Of a stretch of DNA of 64,000 nucleotides, positions 15,485 through 23,398 are shown piece by piece. The DNA comes from Colwellia sp. (GTDB taxonomy: Bacteria; Pseudomonadota; Gammaproteobacteria; Enterobacterales; Alteromonadaceae), in assembly GCA_013215295.1 (NCBI GenBank), contig JABSOZ010000014.1, forward strand, positions 1 to 64,000, written 5' to 3'. The notes under the pieces are model-generated. The model had not been told where the DNA came from. It did not search any database and worked only from the letters and a program-made list of their open reading frames with translations. The stretch's first letter is position 1; each line of letters opens with the position of its first letter. The translations under genes were made by a program, and so were the position numbers.

Positions 15485-15546
15485 ATTAAGTTATTCGTAT
15501 AGTACAATGAATTATTTCCCTTTTACTTAATAAGTAGTTGAAAAAA

Positions 15547-16455
15547 ATGAAAAATATAAAATCAGCAAGTTTAATTACTGCGATAAAAACTCCTTATAAT
15601 GCACAAGGTGAAATTGACCTTGTTACTTATGATCAACTTGTTGCACAACAAATTGAGGCTGGCGTTGAAGGTATTGTTGTGGGTGGAACTACGGGGGAAG
15701 GGCATTTATTAAGTTGGGAAGAACATTTAATGCTAATTGCTCATACTGTTCATCAGTATAGCGACAAGCTTATTATTGTTGGTAATACCGGTAGTAATAA
15801 TACGCGAGAAGCGATTAAAGCGACACAAAATGGTTTTGCTATGGGAATGGATGCCGCACTTCAAATCAATCCATATTATGGCCGAACGTCAAAGGCTGGT
15901 GTCGTGGCACATCTTAATAAATTGTTGGATATTGGTCCTGCTTTTATTTATAACGTACCGGGCAGAACTGGTCAGGATCTTACGCCAGATATAATTGAAC
16001 CATTATCAACCCATAAGAATTTTATTGGCGTAAAAGAATGTGGCGGCAATGAACGTATTGGTTATTATGAGAAGAAAGGTATCGCTTGTTGGTCAGGTAA
16101 CGACGATGAATGTTATGTAGGGCGCCACGAATTTGGTTCTCACGGTGTTATTTCAGTAACGTCAAATGTTGTTCCAAGCTTAATGAGAACCTTAATGGAC
16201 ACTCAAAATAGCGAGTTAAACGATCGTTTACAAAATTTAATGAAATGGTTGTTTTGTGAACCAAACCCAATTGCTATCAATACCACGTTAATGATGACGG
16301 GTGCTGTTGAACGTAATTTCAGATTACCTTATTTAGCATTAACGTTAGAGCAACGTCAGCAAGGTTTTGATTATTTAGCTAAATTTGAAACGTCTGAACT
16401 TGTTGGTGATAAATTAGCATTATTGAACGACAGTGATTTTAATTACTGTGTGTAA
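15547..16455 (+). CDS. dapA: 4-hydroxy-tetrahydrodipicolinate synthase family protein
   Basis: 302 residues, TIM-barrel class I aldolase. Seen: GGTTGEGHLL (46-55) with the paired Thr, catalytic Tyr135 in YNVPGRTG with Arg140, and Schiff-base Lys163 in GVKECGGN. Arg140 corresponds to the arginine that binds aspartate semialdehyde in DapA, favouring a lysine/DAP pathway role over sugar-acid aldolases of the same family. The frame is open nine bases up to a TTG, but ATG 15547 is the normal start. It is not next to other lysine genes, and a second dapA elsewhere is possible. Confidence 0.8.
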   Translation: MKNIKSASLITAIKTPYNAQGEIDLVTYDQLVAQQIEAGVEGIVVGGTTGEGHLLSWEEHLMLIAHTVHQYSDKLIIVGNTGSNNTREAIKATQNGFAMGMDAALQINPYYGRTSKAGVVAHLNKLLDIGPAFIYNVPGRTGQDLTPDIIEPLSTHKNFIGVKECGGNERIGYYEKKGIACWSGNDDECYVGRHEFGSHGVISVTSNVVPSLMRTLMDTQNSELNDRLQNLMKWLFCEPNPIAINTTLMMTGAVERNFRLPYLALTLEQRQQGFDYLAKFETSELVGDKLALLNDSDFNYCV

Positions 16456-18138: not shown

Positions 18139-18984
18139 TCACTTAGTTGATACGAGTGAGCGACAAATTTCTTTTACTGCTGTGATGATTGATGAATTTT
18201 CTTTATTGCTGTTAAAAGCTAAGCCAATATCTTTGATTAAGTGATTATCTTCTATTGGAATTAAGGTTAATTCATCAGCATTCAATATTTCTCGCCAATC
18301 AGGTAGTAATGCCGCACCAATCCCCGCACACACTAATTGCCAAGCATACTCTACCGTTTTGATATTAGCGCGCGGTTGAAATCTTACAGAAGTATCTGTC
18401 ATACCAGCTTTTAGTTTATCGAGTGCTTCACAAGGTGCAATATTGATGAAAGGCATACCTTCCAATTCAGCAATATTAATTGACGATTTTTTAGCAATAG
18501 GCCAATTTTTTGGCACCGCAAGTTGATAGTTGTCTTGCCAAATAGGAATGAAACTTTCATTCTTGGCAACCGAATGGGCAATGACAACACGTGCATCACA
18601 TGGCTCTTCGGGATCAACTAAAGTGAGTTCTATGTTTTCAATTTCCTCAGTAATTTTTTTCAATAAATAACTTATTCGCTGTGCACCTAATGAACGCATA
18701 ATACCTAATCTGAGTAATACCGGCTTTGGGCTTGCTGAAAAAAGGTTACTAATAGACTTTGCATTATCTGCCATTTCTTTCGCTTTAGGATAAAGCTTAT
18801 CGGCTGCATCTGTAGGTAATACACCGCGAGCATGACGTATAAATAAAATAATATCTAAGTCTGACTCAAGCTGCTTAATCGCGGTGGTTATCGAAGGTTG
18901 AGAAACAAAACAACTTCGAGCTGCAGCACTAATACTGCCTTGTTCATAAACTGACTGAAAATATTTTAGTGAGCGAAGTTCCAT
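18139..18984 (-). CDS. LysR-type regulator of the CoA-transferase/thiolase operon
   Basis: 281 residues. N-terminal winged HTH (MELRSLKYFQSVYEQGSISA ... SQPSITTAIKQLESDLD), linker helix, then an effector-binding domain. ATG 18984 has GGAAAG upstream; a TTG 12 bases earlier is ignored. It is divergent from the CoA-transferase gene across about 250 bases that contain a palindrome at 19096-19112. By LysR logic it should activate the operon in response to a pathway intermediate. The effector is unknown. Confidence 0.85.
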   Translation of the reverse strand: MELRSLKYFQSVYEQGSISAAARSCFVSQPSITTAIKQLESDLDIILFIRHARGVLPTDAADKLYPKAKEMADNAKSISNLFSASPKPVLLRLGIMRSLGAQRISYLLKKITEEIENIELTLVDPEEPCDARVVIAHSVAKNESFIPIWQDNYQLAVPKNWPIAKKSSINIAELEGMPFINIAPCEALDKLKAGMTDTSVRFQPRANIKTVEYAWQLVCAGIGAALLPDWREILNADELTLIPIEDNHLIKDIGLAFNSNKENSSIITAVKEICRSLVSTK

Positions 18985-19095
18985 GAGTCTTTCCAATTAG
19001 GCTTATTAATCTGAATTTATGTTTATTAAACAAAAATAGCGTCAATTATATTTGATATATATCTGATATATATTTTATGAATGTTAATTTAATTT

Positions 19096-19112
19096 AGGTA
19101 TAGTTTATACCT
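19096..19112. promoter_or_regulatory. LysR-type operator candidate
   Basis: AGGTATA-GTT-TATACCT, a perfect 7-base-arm palindrome in the LysR/CoA-transferase gap, overlapping a second TATACC repeat. The spacing is compatible with LysR recognition elements. Confidence 0.5.
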
Positions 19113-19240
19113 ATACCTTTTATAAACAAATTATATTTTTCAAGAGTAAATACAAGCAGTAAAGTTGTTATATATTCATACAAACAACGTCATCCTGAAT
19201 TTACCTCAAGGCGGCGAGTTGAAATAGGAATGAACCAACG

Positions 19241-19951
19241 ATGATAAATAAATTTAGCACCACTGCAGCTGATGCTGTTGCCGATATTTTTGATGGGGCA
19301 ACTGTGATGATCGGCGGCTTTGGTGAAGCAGGAAGTCCGATTGAGTTGATCCATGCACTTATTGACCACGGTGCTAAAAACCTCACCGTTGTTAACAATA
19401 ATACCGGTAGTGGTCATGTGGGCTTAGCGGCTTTAATTGAAAATGGGCAAGTAGGAAAAATGATTTGCTCATTTCCACGTACGGCTAATTCTACGGTTTT
19501 TCCTGACCTATACCGCGCCGGTAAAATTGAGCTAGAACTTGTGCCACAAGGTACGCTTGCCGAACGTATTCGAGCGGGCGGCGCTGGCATTCCAGCATTT
19601 TTCACTGCGACTTCGGTAGGAACACCTTTGGCTGATGGTAAAGAGCATCGCAACTTTGATGAACGTGATTACGTGATGGAGCTAAGCTTAACTGCTGACT
19701 TTGCCCTTATCAAAGCGAAAGAAGCCGATCGTTATGGCAACTTAACCTACAACAAAACCGCGCGGAATTTTGCACCCATTATGGCAATGGCGGCAAAGAC
19801 CACCATAGTACAAACGAGTCACTGTGTGGAAGCTGGCGATATTGATCCCGAAACCGTTGCGACACCAGGCATTTTTGTTGACCGAATTATTCATGTTGAA
19901 AACCCATTACAAGAATCTCGCTTAAATGCGCAAGGGAGAACTTACCCATGA
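19241..19951 (+). CDS. 3-oxoacid (3-oxoadipate-type) CoA-transferase subunit A
   Basis: 236 residues, family I CoA-transferase alpha subunit. Seen: MIGGFGEAGSPIELI (glycine-rich CoA site), NNNTGSGHVGLAALIENGQV, and IRAGGAGIPAFFT. Closest by pattern to PcaI/CatI subunits, which move CoA from succinyl-CoA to 3-oxoadipate, but acetoacetate-type enzymes share these motifs. The stop overlaps the start of subunit B (ATGA). First gene of a four-gene operon driven from the LysR gap; AGGA lies 11 bases before the ATG. Confidence 0.9.
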   Translation: MINKFSTTAADAVADIFDGATVMIGGFGEAGSPIELIHALIDHGAKNLTVVNNNTGSGHVGLAALIENGQVGKMICSFPRTANSTVFPDLYRAGKIELELVPQGTLAERIRAGGAGIPAFFTATSVGTPLADGKEHRNFDERDYVMELSLTADFALIKAKEADRYGNLTYNKTARNFAPIMAMAAKTTIVQTSHCVEAGDIDPETVATPGIFVDRIIHVENPLQESRLNAQGRTYP

Positions 19952-20631
19952 GCTTAGAAAAAAATACACAAGCAGTTGGCTGGACACGCGACCAAATGGC
20001 TGAACGTGCCGCACTTGATATTCCTGATGGTTCATACGTTAACTTGGGCATTGGCATTCCTGAAAAAGTCGCTCGCTATGTACCACAAGGGCGTGAATTT
20101 ATTTATCACACCGAAAATGGCTTATTAGGCATGGGACCCACACCAGAAGTGGGTGAAGAAGATGCCGACCTAATTAATGCCGGCAAAAAGCCTGTAACCG
20201 CTATTGCTGGCGCAGCATATTTTCATCATGCTGACAGCTTTGCGATGATCCGCGGGCAGCATATCGATGTTTGTGTATTAGGAGCAATGCAAGTGGCACA
20301 AAATGGCGATTTAGCTAATTGGTCAACCGGTGCACCAGATGCTATTCCTGCTGTGGGCGGTGCAATGGATCTTGTGGCGGGGGTGAAAACCATTTTTGTT
20401 ATTACTCAACACACCACAAAAAATGGTATTGCCAAATTGATTGAAGCATGTAGTTACCCGTTAACCGGTCAAGGTGTTGTTAGCCGAATTTATACCGACT
20501 TATGTGTTATTGAAGTGACCAGTAAAGGCTTTGAACTGGTTGAATTAGCCCCTAATGTAGCGTTCGACACTGTTCAAGAACGCACTGATGCCAAACTTTT
20601 AGACCCAAACAATATAGCGGAGCAATCATAA
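19948..20631 (+). CDS. 3-oxoacid (3-oxoadipate-type) CoA-transferase subunit B
   Basis: 227 residues. Carries the catalytic glutamate in YHTENGLLGMGP (Glu56) and LGIGIPEKVA, GAAYFHHADSFAMIRGQHID and GAMQVAQNGDLANWSTG, the usual beta-subunit motifs. Together with subunit A it forms the heteromeric transferase. Translationally coupled on both sides: ATGA with subunit A and TAATG with the aminotransferase gene. Substrate chain length is not readable; the thiolase neighbour points to a 3-oxo dicarboxylate such as 3-oxoadipate. Confidence 0.9.
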   Translation: MSLEKNTQAVGWTRDQMAERAALDIPDGSYVNLGIGIPEKVARYVPQGREFIYHTENGLLGMGPTPEVGEEDADLINAGKKPVTAIAGAAYFHHADSFAMIRGQHIDVCVLGAMQVAQNGDLANWSTGAPDAIPAVGGAMDLVAGVKTIFVITQHTTKNGIAKLIEACSYPLTGQGVVSRIYTDLCVIEVTSKGFELVELAPNVAFDTVQERTDAKLLDPNNIAEQS

Positions 20632-22004
20632 TGTCATCTACCTCATTTATCTCAAATGGTTCAGCTACTTTAGCTGATCAAGACAGTAAAAGTGCTCAGC
20701 TTTTTAAGCGTGCAAAAAAAGTATTACCAGGCGGTGTTAGTCGCAATACCATTTTTAAATTGCCACATCCTGATTACGTTGAAAAAGGTCAGGGCTGTTA
20801 TGTTACCGATATTGACGGTGTAACTCGCATCGATTTTGCCAATAATATGGCGTCACTGATCCATGGACACGCTAACCCAGAAATTACCCAAGCGATTATC
20901 GAGCAAGTACAAAAAGGCACTGCCTTTACTATGGCCACCGAAATTGAAATTGAGTATGCCGAACTCTTATGTGCACGTGTACCTGGTTTTGAAAAAATTC
21001 GTTTTGTAAATTCTGGCACCGAAGCGGTAATGGCGATGATCAAAGCTGCGCGTGCTTTTACCGGCAAAGAAAAAATAGCAAAAGTGGAAGGTGCCTATCA
21101 TGGCGCTTATGATTACGCCGAAGTTAGCCAAACCGCAGCCCCTAAAAATTGGGGCGATGAAGACCAACCCGCCAGTGTTCCTGTTGCCAACGGTACACCT
21201 GAGGGCGCTTTAGATGACGTTATTATTATTCCTTATAACAATGTTGAAAAAGCTTTAGCCATTTTAAATCAGCACAAAGGTGAATTAGCGGGAATACTGA
21301 TAGATCCCGTTTCTCATCGTGTTGGTATGGTGCCAGCGAGTGAAGAATTTGTTGAAGCACTTTATCAATGGACACGAGAAAACGCCGCATTACTGATGTT
21401 TGATGAAGTGATCACCTTCCGCGTTAATTATGCTGGCGCTCAGCAAAACTATAAAGTGGCACCGGATTTAACCGCCATCGGAAAAATGATTGGTGGTGGT
21501 TTCCCTGTTGGTGCATTTGCTGGCAGAAGTGATGTAATGGAGGTACTTGACCCAACTCAACCGAAAGTTTTATTACCCCATTCAGGTACTTTTTCTGCTA
21601 ACCCTGTCACCATGACCGCAGGTATTACTGCGATGCGTTTGTTCGATGAAAAAGCGGTAGATTATGTCAATGATTTAGGAGACTTAGCCCGTAAAGAAAT
21701 TAGCCATGCCATTGAAAAAACCGGTATTAAAGCTTGTGTCACGGGAGCGGGTTCAATGTTTCGAATCCACTTAAAAGAAGATGCACCCAGTAATTATCGT
21801 CAAGCATATGCGAATGAAGATGAAGCTAAAGGCTTGAAGTTATTACTCACGCATTTGTTTGAACAAGGGCTGATGATGATCAATACTTGCTCTGCTATGT
21901 TATCAACGGCAATGACCGAAAAAGAAATTATGATTTTAGTGGAACATTTAAGCTCAGGCTTTGAAAAAGTCATTGAGCAATATCCTTCACTAAAGAGAAG
22001 CTAA
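20631..22004 (+). CDS. Class III aminotransferase (beta-amino-acid / GSA aminomutase-like)
   Basis: 457 residues, PLP fold type I. Seen: LPGGVSRNT (32-40), FVNSGTEAVMAM, GAYHGAYDY, Asp258 in MFDEVITFR, PLP Lys285 in AIGKMIGGGFPVGAF, and HSGTFSANPVTM. The pattern is close to glutamate-1-semialdehyde aminomutases and to beta-phenylalanine aminotransferase, whose carboxylate-binding Arg41 appears matched by Arg38. A haem-pathway role is unlikely inside a CoA-transferase/thiolase operon. I infer transamination of a beta-amino acid to a 3-oxo acid that feeds the transferase. Substrate is unproven. Confidence 0.8.
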   Translation: MSSTSFISNGSATLADQDSKSAQLFKRAKKVLPGGVSRNTIFKLPHPDYVEKGQGCYVTDIDGVTRIDFANNMASLIHGHANPEITQAIIEQVQKGTAFTMATEIEIEYAELLCARVPGFEKIRFVNSGTEAVMAMIKAARAFTGKEKIAKVEGAYHGAYDYAEVSQTAAPKNWGDEDQPASVPVANGTPEGALDDVIIIPYNNVEKALAILNQHKGELAGILIDPVSHRVGMVPASEEFVEALYQWTRENAALLMFDEVITFRVNYAGAQQNYKVAPDLTAIGKMIGGGFPVGAFAGRSDVMEVLDPTQPKVLLPHSGTFSANPVTMTAGITAMRLFDEKAVDYVNDLGDLARKEISHAIEKTGIKACVTGAGSMFRIHLKEDAPSNYRQAYANEDEAKGLKLLLTHLFEQGLMMINTCSAMLSTAMTEKEIMILVEHLSSGFEKVIEQYPSLKRS

Positions 22005-22112
22005 AGACAGCTCAAGTAAAGTAAATTAAGATAAAACAAATTCTAAAGAGAAAAATGAATGAGTGACTTTTCCAATGAAGAAAAAAGCACGTCACAAAGA
22101 GAAAATAATGAG

Positions 22113-23318
22113 ATGAATGACGTCTTTATTTGTGACGCAATTAGAACACCTGTTGGCCGCTTCGGTGGTTCACTGGCGACTATTCGTGCCGACGATTTAG
22201 CGGCATTGCCCTTAAAAGCATTAATGGACAGAAATCCCGATTTAGATTTTAGCCAAGTTGATGATGTTATTTTAGGTTGTGCTAACCAAGCCGGTGAAGA
22301 CAACCGCAATATTGCGCGTATGGCGACTTTATTAGCCGGTTTACCTTATCAAGTACCTGCAACAACGTTGAACCGTTTATGTGGTTCAGGTTTGAATGCG
22401 GTAGGTATTGCTATGCAGGCGATTAAGTCAGGTGAAGCTGAAATGATTATTGCTGGCGGCGCTGAGAGCATGACTCGTGCGCCTTTTGTCATGGGCAAAG
22501 CCGAAAGCAATTTTTCACGAACTCAAGAAATGTTTGATACCACCATGGGCTGGCGTTTTGTTAATAAGGCGCTCGATAGTGCTTATGGCACGGAAACCAT
22601 GCCACAAACCGCTGAAAATCTAGCTGATGAATTTAACATTAGTCGTGAAGACCAAGACAAGTTTGCCTTTGCCAGTCAGCAAAAAGCAGCCAATGCACAA
22701 CAAGCGGGTTTATTCGACGAAGAAATAGTGCCGGTAAGTATTGCTCAACGTAAAAAAGATCCAATAATTTTTGCTAAAGATGAACATCTAAGATTAACCA
22801 CTTTAGAAAAAATGTCAGCGTTAAAACCTTTTGTTCATGCTAAAGGATGTATAACGGCGGGTAATGCTTCAGGTATTAATGACGGCGCTGCGGCCATCTT
22901 ACTTGCTTCACGTAAGTCGGTAGAAAAAAACAACTTAACGCCCATCGCTAAAGTGCTAGGTATGGCCGTGGCAGGAGTACCGCCACGCATTATGGGCATA
23001 GGCCCCGTACCGGCAACGCAAAAGTTATTAAAGCGATTAAAGTTGTCATTAGCTGATATGGATATAATCGAGATAAACGAAGCGTTTGCAGCACAAGCAT
23101 TAGCCTGTATTCGTGAGTTAGGTTTACAAGATGATGACCCGCGCATTAATCCACAAGGTGGCGCTATTGCCTTAGGGCATCCGCTTGGCATGAGTGGCGC
23201 ACGTTTAATTATCTCAGCAGCTCGTCAATTACAACGCAGCAACAAGCGTTACGCTTTGTGTACTATGTGTATCGGTGTCGGACAGGGCATTGCTTTGATT
23301 ATTGAAAAGAGTGATTAA
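22113..23318 (+). CDS. Thiolase, 3-oxoadipyl-CoA type (PcaF-like)
   Basis: 401 residues from ATG 22113, the length of PcaF/PaaJ. Seen: MNDVFICDAIRTPVGRFGG, nucleophile Cys90 in LNRLCGSGLNAVG, NEAFAAQAL, GHPLGMSGARL, and CIGVGQG with the second catalytic Cys. It cleaves 3-oxoadipyl-CoA to succinyl-CoA and acetyl-CoA in the known family. The frame extends to an ATG at 22059, adding 18 polar residues absent from relatives; both starts have AAAGAGAAAA upstream, so the longer form is not excluded. Last gene of the operon, followed by a terminator. Confidence 0.9.
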   Translation: MNDVFICDAIRTPVGRFGGSLATIRADDLAALPLKALMDRNPDLDFSQVDDVILGCANQAGEDNRNIARMATLLAGLPYQVPATTLNRLCGSGLNAVGIAMQAIKSGEAEMIIAGGAESMTRAPFVMGKAESNFSRTQEMFDTTMGWRFVNKALDSAYGTETMPQTAENLADEFNISREDQDKFAFASQQKAANAQQAGLFDEEIVPVSIAQRKKDPIIFAKDEHLRLTTLEKMSALKPFVHAKGCITAGNASGINDGAAAILLASRKSVEKNNLTPIAKVLGMAVAGVPPRIMGIGPVPATQKLLKRLKLSLADMDIIEINEAFAAQALACIRELGLQDDDPRINPQGGAIALGHPLGMSGARLIISAARQLQRSNKRYALCTMCIGVGQGIALIIEKSD

Positions 23319-23354: not shown

Positions 23355-23398
23355 AAACACTTAACTTGATTGATGATAATTAAGTTAAGTGTTTTTTC
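23355..23398 (+). terminator. Terminator of the CoA-transferase/thiolase operon
   Basis: AACACTTAACTT / AAGTTAAGTGTT, 12 perfect pairs around a 14-base loop, then a T-run. Confidence 0.85.

Follow-up and report, generated by a model that had tools for sequence, protein, structure and literature searches.

The operon at positions 19241-23318 of the window, the whole 64,000-nucleotide stretch from contig JABSOZ010000014.1 of a Colwellia sp., probably represents the lower half of a 2-aminoadipate catabolic pathway running via 3-aminoadipate and 3-oxoadipate. It comprises genes for the two subunits of a coenzyme A (CoA) transferase (ctA and ctB), a class III aminotransferase and a thiolase. That it encodes a module leading from a beta-amino acid to acyl-CoA is very likely; that this module is fed by an enzyme of one of two radical S-adenosylmethionine (SAM) families, which we call c4 and c5, is only slightly less so, and a C6 dicarboxylate is the substrate that we favour. 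More generally, and with somewhat greater reserve, we propose a new lysine/2-aminoadipate route, present in many phyla, which would join the beta-ketoadipate pathway via 3-aminoadipate and would use c4 and c5 as mutually exclusive families of radical-SAM 2-aminoadipate 2,3-aminomutase.

According to this scheme, c5 (encoded in trans here; most relatives that offer sufficient sequence have c4 or c5 ahead of the operon) would act as a radical-SAM, pyridoxal phosphate (PLP)-dependent 2,3-aminomutase on L-2-aminoadipate, whose amino group would pass from C2 to C3. The aminotransferase of the operon would then convert 3-aminoadipate to 3-oxoadipate, CtAB would turn the latter into 3-oxoadipyl-CoA with CoA probably taken from succinyl-CoA, and thiolysis would yield succinyl-CoA and acetyl-CoA. 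In a number of relatives 2-aminoadipate would be supplied from lysine via saccharopine, pipecolate or piperidine-6-carboxylate. We infer all these reactions, the substrate and the cooperation of the trans-encoded c5 with the window operon from the gene identities, their conserved linkage and the co-occurrence of an aminomutase-like gene. The order of steps suggested in a preliminary description of this DNA (transamination of a beta-amino acid, CoA transfer, thiolysis) fits these findings.

Both CoA-transferase subunits passed the cut-offs of the NCBIfam models for 3-oxoacid CoA-transferases of the PcaIJ/ScoAB type: ctA (19241-19951, + strand; PcaI/ScoA type) scored 353.8 bits against a cut-off of 128.5 with TIGR02429 (pcaI_scoA) and ctB (19948-20631, +; PcaJ/ScoB type) 302.2 against 243.55 with TIGR02428 (pcaJ_scoB). 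The nearest solved structures of subunit A are succinyl-CoA:3-ketoacid transferases, and ctB carries a TENGLLG motif whose Glu we take to be the catalytic residue. The thiolase (22059-23318, +) reached 679.5 bits with the NCBIfam model TIGR02430 (pcaF; cut-off 597), as a PcaF equivalog or 3-oxoadipyl-CoA thiolase, and its best solved relative is 6pca, a beta-ketoadipyl-CoA thiolase. Its motifs LCGSG, GHPLG and CTMCIG, at 107, 373 and 401, presumably supply the catalytic Cys-His-Cys. Since the hidden Markov model match starts only at residue 19 of the open reading frame (ORF), translation may actually begin at the ATG at 22113.

The aminotransferase (20631-22004, +), which we propose to be a 3-aminoadipate transaminase, had been described as a class III enzyme resembling beta-phenylalanine aminotransferase, and its class III assignment held. 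Lys285, within the motif GKMIGGG at 284, is presumably the PLP lysine, and PGGxxR is kept in 79 of 80 aminotransferase relatives, the remaining one (L064) having AGGVSR. The best solved relatives are 6k8h (StoTA), a beta-amino-acid transaminase of Sphaerobacter, and ForI; R38 of the window enzyme aligns with R36 of 6k8h, for which the source proposes a carboxylate-binding role, together with activity of the enzyme towards beta-amino acids of the aromatic, branched and aliphatic types (PMC10589169). For ForI, amination of a ketone flanked by two carboxyl-bearing ring carbons is proposed in one report (PMC8724604), and the substrate was still unconfirmed in the 2019 structure paper (PMC6927412). 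A function as glutamate-1-semialdehyde aminomutase is unlikely: the protein fell below the hemL cut-off (TIGR00713, 357.4 versus 527.3 bits), the genome has a separate HemL above it (637.1 versus 527.3 bits), and R38 has its counterpart in StoTA.

A scan of genome contigs gave 272 relatives, from which the best 80, ranked by aminotransferase likeness, were kept. Many of these are metagenome-assembled genomes, and by the taxon labels of their records they belong to Pseudomonadota, Thermodesulfobacteriota, Myxococcota, Bacteroidota, Planctomycetota, Cloacimonadota, Sumerlaeota, Ignavibacteriota, Actinomycetota, Acidobacteriota and Chloroflexota. On the same strand as the aminotransferase, ctA and ctB precede it in 62 of the 66 loci having at least 4 kb upstream, and a thiolase lies no more than 1 kb downstream in 52 of the 72 having at least 1.5 kb downstream. 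The preliminary description had named conservation of gene order as a check, and the order from ctA/ctB to the aminotransferase was indeed kept across many phyla; as it is conserved well past close relatives, the unit is therefore more than a chance arrangement. Few genomes of the window's family carry the aminotransferase (5 of 147), and at an E-value of 1e-110 it was found in one of 369 genomes of a class sample, the window's own, with at most four candidates scored per genome, so that misses are possible. Three of the loci (L014, L019 and L032) are apparently the same records as contigs of the family genomes G025, G073 and G135 and are thus not independent.

A radical-SAM gene of the KamA superfamily stands upstream on the same strand in 51 of the 66 loci (c4 in 32, c5 in 19), usually adjoining ctA, or the aminotransferase in L034, L036 and L084, and c4 and c5 occur together in none of the 80. 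Shewanella surugensis (L017) is among the c4 carriers. On a quick aminotransferase tree of 77 of the 80 rows (L017, L049 and L053 were dropped for a stop in the matched range), the 54 rows that carry c4 or c5 in cis gave five switches between the two families, which therefore appear to replace one another. Of the 15 loci devoid of upstream c4 or c5, 12 are Colwelliaceae records and the others are L061, L073 and L076. In the window's genome c4 was not found; a c5 is present at G000:C12:536567-538000, sharing 70% identity with the c5 linked to the operon of L033. It is divergent from a LysR gene whose product has 63% identity with the LysR next to the L033 c5, and the same pair recurs in G025. 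This site (L108, 9565-12095), with c5 divergent from a GcvA-like LysR, resembles pairs standing before the operon in L033, L053, L055, L066 and L069. The operons of G109 and G135 have no c4 in cis, yet each contig also carries a c4, at distances of about 7 kb and 20 kb, respectively.

All five aminotransferase carriers of the family sample have c4 or c5, and outside them, among the 147 genomes, we found only a c5 in G069, which has no aminotransferase, and a broken c4 in G040. The hypergeometric probability of this co-occurrence, calculated with genome relatedness ignored, is 1e-8 by genome and 4.5e-5 by genus, or 4e-8 and 2e-4 when G040 is counted as a carrier. For c4, 16 of the 147 genomes gave matches at an E-value of 1e-60; two intact genes (67-68% identity) were kept, and 13 at 35-40%, forming a paralogue family, were set aside with the broken one. 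Taken together, these 16 do not mark operon genomes specifically. The G040 relative (G040:C45:26474-28308) is interrupted by several stops, its genome gave no aminotransferase match at an E-value of 1e-100, and it would reflect an apparent decay of the pathway. The 13-genome radical-SAM family (for example G028:C5:103470-104660) resembles c4 over residues ~120-530, and one member sits in G073, which also has operon genes. Relatives were also seen in 138 plasmid records, of which three were inspected. On a conjugative Mesorhizobium plasmid (L143, 7151-11999), c5, annotated as 'hypothetical protein', stands with fdxA, the aminotransferase (62%) and two CoA-transferase genes that belong to a different subtype; relatives on Rhizobium (48.5%) and Sphingobium (44.9%) plasmids have other neighbours. 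The ferredoxin FdxA of L143 may feed the radical enzyme.

NCBIfam has no name for either c4 or c5. Both keep CxxxCxxC and the PLP lysine of KamA, and lysine 2,3-aminomutase (2a5h) was the sole PDB fold match at an E-value of 0.001 or below for the models of both. By cluster motif, PLP lysine and fold they thus belong to the KamA superfamily, though the proteins tested gave 66-107 bits with TIGR00238 against its cut-off of 199.2. They belong to neither named family examined: five c4/c5 proteins scored 57.8-77.5 bits with the lysine 2,3-aminomutase model (TIGR03820, cut-off 525.4) and 47.9-86.2 with that for glutamate 2,3-aminomutase (TIGR04368, cut-off 650). The column of KamA Asp293 is occupied by Arg in 17/17 c5 and 21/21 c4 sequences, and that of Asp330 by Ser or Thr; we take these two Asp to be the lysine-binding residues of KamA. 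Because Arg replaces Asp293, c4 and c5 would suit an acidic substrate. The Arg of c4 and that of c5 fell in the same column by multiple alignment and by profile comparison; a HMMER pairwise alignment of one c5 with 2a5h placed it one residue off, with a gap. As the predicted structures are of limited quality (mean predicted local distance difference test, pLDDT, of 63.9 for c5, with a poor C-terminal quarter, and 74.8 for c4), we assign the pocket residues from sequence alignment. KamA-like proteins of ~450 residues at L124 (1417-2784) and L128 (1468-2805), which carry Arg in the Asp293 column and match no NCBIfam model at an E-value of 1e-60, possibly represent further aminomutase families.

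Genes of lysine and 2-aminoadipate metabolism were observed near some operons. L-piperidine-6-carboxylate dehydrogenase was detected by tblastn near c4 in L035, L040, L041, L045, L046 and L070, with a fragment at the edge of L037; the L045 protein scored 795 bits against the NF050084 cut-off of 730. L035 also has an AmaA-like pipecolate oxidase, which at 458.6 bits remained below its cut-off of 600, and two Cloacimonadota loci (L048 and L054) carry a saccharopine dehydrogenase and an AlaDh/PNT-type (LKR-like) gene. In 33 further c4/c5 genomes, selected from the c4/c5 loci after removal of the six with the gene already adjacent and of some others, the dehydrogenase exceeded its cut-off in 20 (11 of 15 with c5, 9 of 18 with c4) versus 1 of 14 controls, which were few and unrelated. 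Ancylomarina salipaludis (L086) and Labilibacter sediminis (L065) combine the operon, c4 and the dehydrogenase. Among 14 dehydrogenase sites inspected, one had an LKR-like gene nearby (L152) and another a saccharopine-dehydrogenase-like gene (L146).

Several observations weigh against the 2-aminoadipate route. The 80 loci are the best of the 272 by likeness to the window aminotransferase, the pcaI_scoA and pcaJ_scoB models cannot tell 3-oxoadipate from acetoacetate enzymes, and c5 operons often have no adjoining thiolase (present in 5/17). The window operon has its aminomutase-like gene in trans and a LysR, not a PcaR-like, regulator, and one of the five carriers (G073) is a fragmented genome of 9.2 Mb in 1390 contigs. 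Piperidine-6-carboxylate dehydrogenase was not found at an E-value of 1e-120 in 13 of the 33 c4/c5 genomes, nor at 1e-100 in any of the five family carriers; the window's genome, being one of these, accordingly shows no evident source of 2-aminoadipate. The congener G101, which has no operon, does have the dehydrogenase, near LKR- and saccharopine-dehydrogenase-like genes. Finally, Arg at the Asp293 column was also seen in 3 of 13 other KamA-like proteins, and it fits glutamate as well.

The main rival is a route in which glutamate would be converted through beta-glutamate, 3-oxoglutarate and 3-oxoglutaryl-CoA to acetyl-CoA and malonyl-CoA. Any acidic side chain would fit an Arg in the pocket, comparable replacements at the lysine-binding Asp positions of KamA occur in glutamate 2,3-aminomutase, and this route would not need the 2-aminoadipate source that the window's genome does not evidently offer; moreover, ForI, which is closely related to the aminotransferase, has been proposed to act on a ketone between two carboxyl-bearing carbons. 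It agrees poorly with the scores of 48-86 bits against a cut-off of 650 in the glutamate 2,3-aminomutase model, with the PcaF equivalog and with regulators of the PcaR/PcaU family, and it leaves unexplained both the lysine/2-aminoadipate genes beside c4 and the finding of the dehydrogenase in 20 of the 33 further genomes. We consider it unlikely, although it is the most credible of the alternatives. The preliminary description had set 3-aminoadipate and the marine osmolyte beta-glutamate side by side as substrates: the former is now favoured by the thiolase, the regulators and the 2-aminoadipate-forming genes near some c4, and the latter is reduced to the rival just described. In view of the upstream radical-SAM enzyme, the likely source is an ordinary alpha-amino acid and not an environmental osmolyte.

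A KamA-superfamily enzyme upstream and the same order of steps would also accommodate a beta-lysine route, of a kind once described in a Pseudomonas, from lysine through beta-lysine, N-acetylation, transamination, CoA transfer and thiolysis to a 4-acetamidobutyryl thioester, followed by a thioesterase step; indeed, a small thioesterase-like gene stands upstream of c4 in L037, L042, L050 and L056 (with a hotdog model match in L042, the only one tested). This is improbable, however, since both lysine-binding Asp columns are altered in all 38 aligned c4/c5 sequences, the c4 genomes L115 and L116 also have lysine 2,3-aminomutases over the TIGR03820 cut-off, and no acetyltransferase was identified in the neighbourhoods, where most neighbours are unannotated. 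Other beta-amino acids, such as beta-phenylalanine, beta-leucine or homologues of beta-alanine, would match the substrate range given above for 6k8h; the PcaF-type thiolase, the acid-type pocket residue of the partner aminomutase and the 2-aminoadipate genes near some operons leave them little probability. Least probable of all, the operon could be the tail of an aromatic beta-ketoadipate pathway, with the aminotransferase as a passenger. Its PcaI/J/F-type proteins and the PcaR-type regulators of relatives would suit such a tail, as would intradiol dioxygenase matches (PF00775) in three other operon genomes (two in G025, one each in G109 and G135), which also count against the 2-aminoadipate route. 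In the window's genome PF00775 found nothing, in a search limited to intradiol enzymes that did not cover extradiol ring cleavage; the earlier statement that ring-cleavage genes are absent thus stands within this scope and does not extend to the three other genomes. Moreover, a second PcaF-type thiolase (714 bits) lies at L112 of the window's genome, in what we take by eye to be a phenylacetate cluster, and the aminotransferase stays with ctAB across phyla (in the same 62/66 loci), though the loci were found through the aminotransferase. The 2-aminoadipate route would offer a joint explanation for the aminomutase-like gene with its acid-type pocket residue, for the beta-transaminase together with PcaIJ/PcaF-type enzymes, and for the presence of the PcaR-type regulator and of lysine genes.

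The compact unit of LysR, ctA, ctB, aminotransferase and thiolase reported earlier was recovered with its ORFs, identities and overlaps, of four bases between ctA and ctB (ATGA) and of one base between ctB and the aminotransferase (TAATG). It is followed by a terminator-like hairpin with a T run (23355-23394, +), directly 3' of the thiolase, AT-rich and of 18 pairs, 3 of them G-C; this is the longest stem among 10 such sites in the region, where shuffles gave an expectation of 5.9. The LysR-type regulator (18139-18996, - strand; Pfam HTH_1 and LysR_substrate) is divergent from the operon, and the promoter region between them contains, on no particular strand, an inverted repeat read from the sequence (GGTATA-GTT-TATACC, 19097-19111), a candidate regulator site whose flanking bases are mostly, and whose arms are incompletely, conserved in L010. 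The window LysR shares 80% identity with its counterpart at this operon in L014/L010 (a single record), 63-65% with those of Shewanella L017, L018 and L028, 60% with that of L063 and 51% with that of L037. A sister clade of ~35% identity adjoins piperidine-6-carboxylate dehydrogenase, a weak link between this LysR and the enzyme. In contrast to the window operon, the majority of Colwellia-type operons carry a PcaR/PcaU-type regulator. Regulators of both Colwellia operons tested passed the PcaR/PcaU/PobR cut-off, and the protein cluster of this regulator type was found beside 14 of the 80 loci. About 1.7 kb past the LysR gene, a DapA-family lyase is encoded at 15538-16455 (+; TIGR00674, 223.7 bits against a cut-off of 206.15).

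The proposed route shares with the last two steps of the beta-ketoadipate pathway (PcaIJ, PcaF) its types of CoA-transferase and thiolase, the probable intermediates 3-oxoadipate and 3-oxoadipyl-CoA and, in the operons of Colwellia relatives, a PcaR/PcaU-family regulator; it differs in that 3-oxoadipate would derive from a beta-amino acid and not from aromatic ring cleavage. Known routes of lysine degradation via 2-aminoadipate (saccharopine or pipecolate), whose genes adjoin the operon in some relatives, deaminate this compound at C2 to 2-oxoadipate, whereas here the amino group would first shift to C3. Similarly, c4 and c5 share cluster motif, PLP lysine and best fold match with the lysine, glutamate and arginine 2,3-aminomutases, but those tested lie far below all named models and have changed lysine-binding Asp positions. 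The aminotransferase is of the same class III family as the beta-amino-acid transaminases StoTA, VpAT (4ao9) and MesAT (2yku) and ForI, and differs from these in its operon, with CoA-transferase, thiolase and an aminomutase-like partner. The logic of a 2,3-aminomutase product followed by transamination, CoA activation and thiolysis is that of beta-lysine degradation in Pseudomonas, except that an acidic instead of a basic substrate is indicated.

In listings from the open-access literature (PMC), outside of which most subscription papers lie, we found no paper on 3-aminoadipate catabolism or on this operon; two of the papers listed contain a term of this kind, each on a single occasion. Every step has a known enzyme type, and the novelty would thus reside in their combination. 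If correct, this proposal would provide bacteria with another exit for 2-aminoadipate, giving succinyl-CoA and acetyl-CoA and bypassing 2-oxoadipate. Two radical-SAM families without a name in NCBIfam would also acquire functions, many genes now annotated as 'aspartate aminotransferase family' would be assigned, and 3-aminoadipate would become a metabolite worth looking for.

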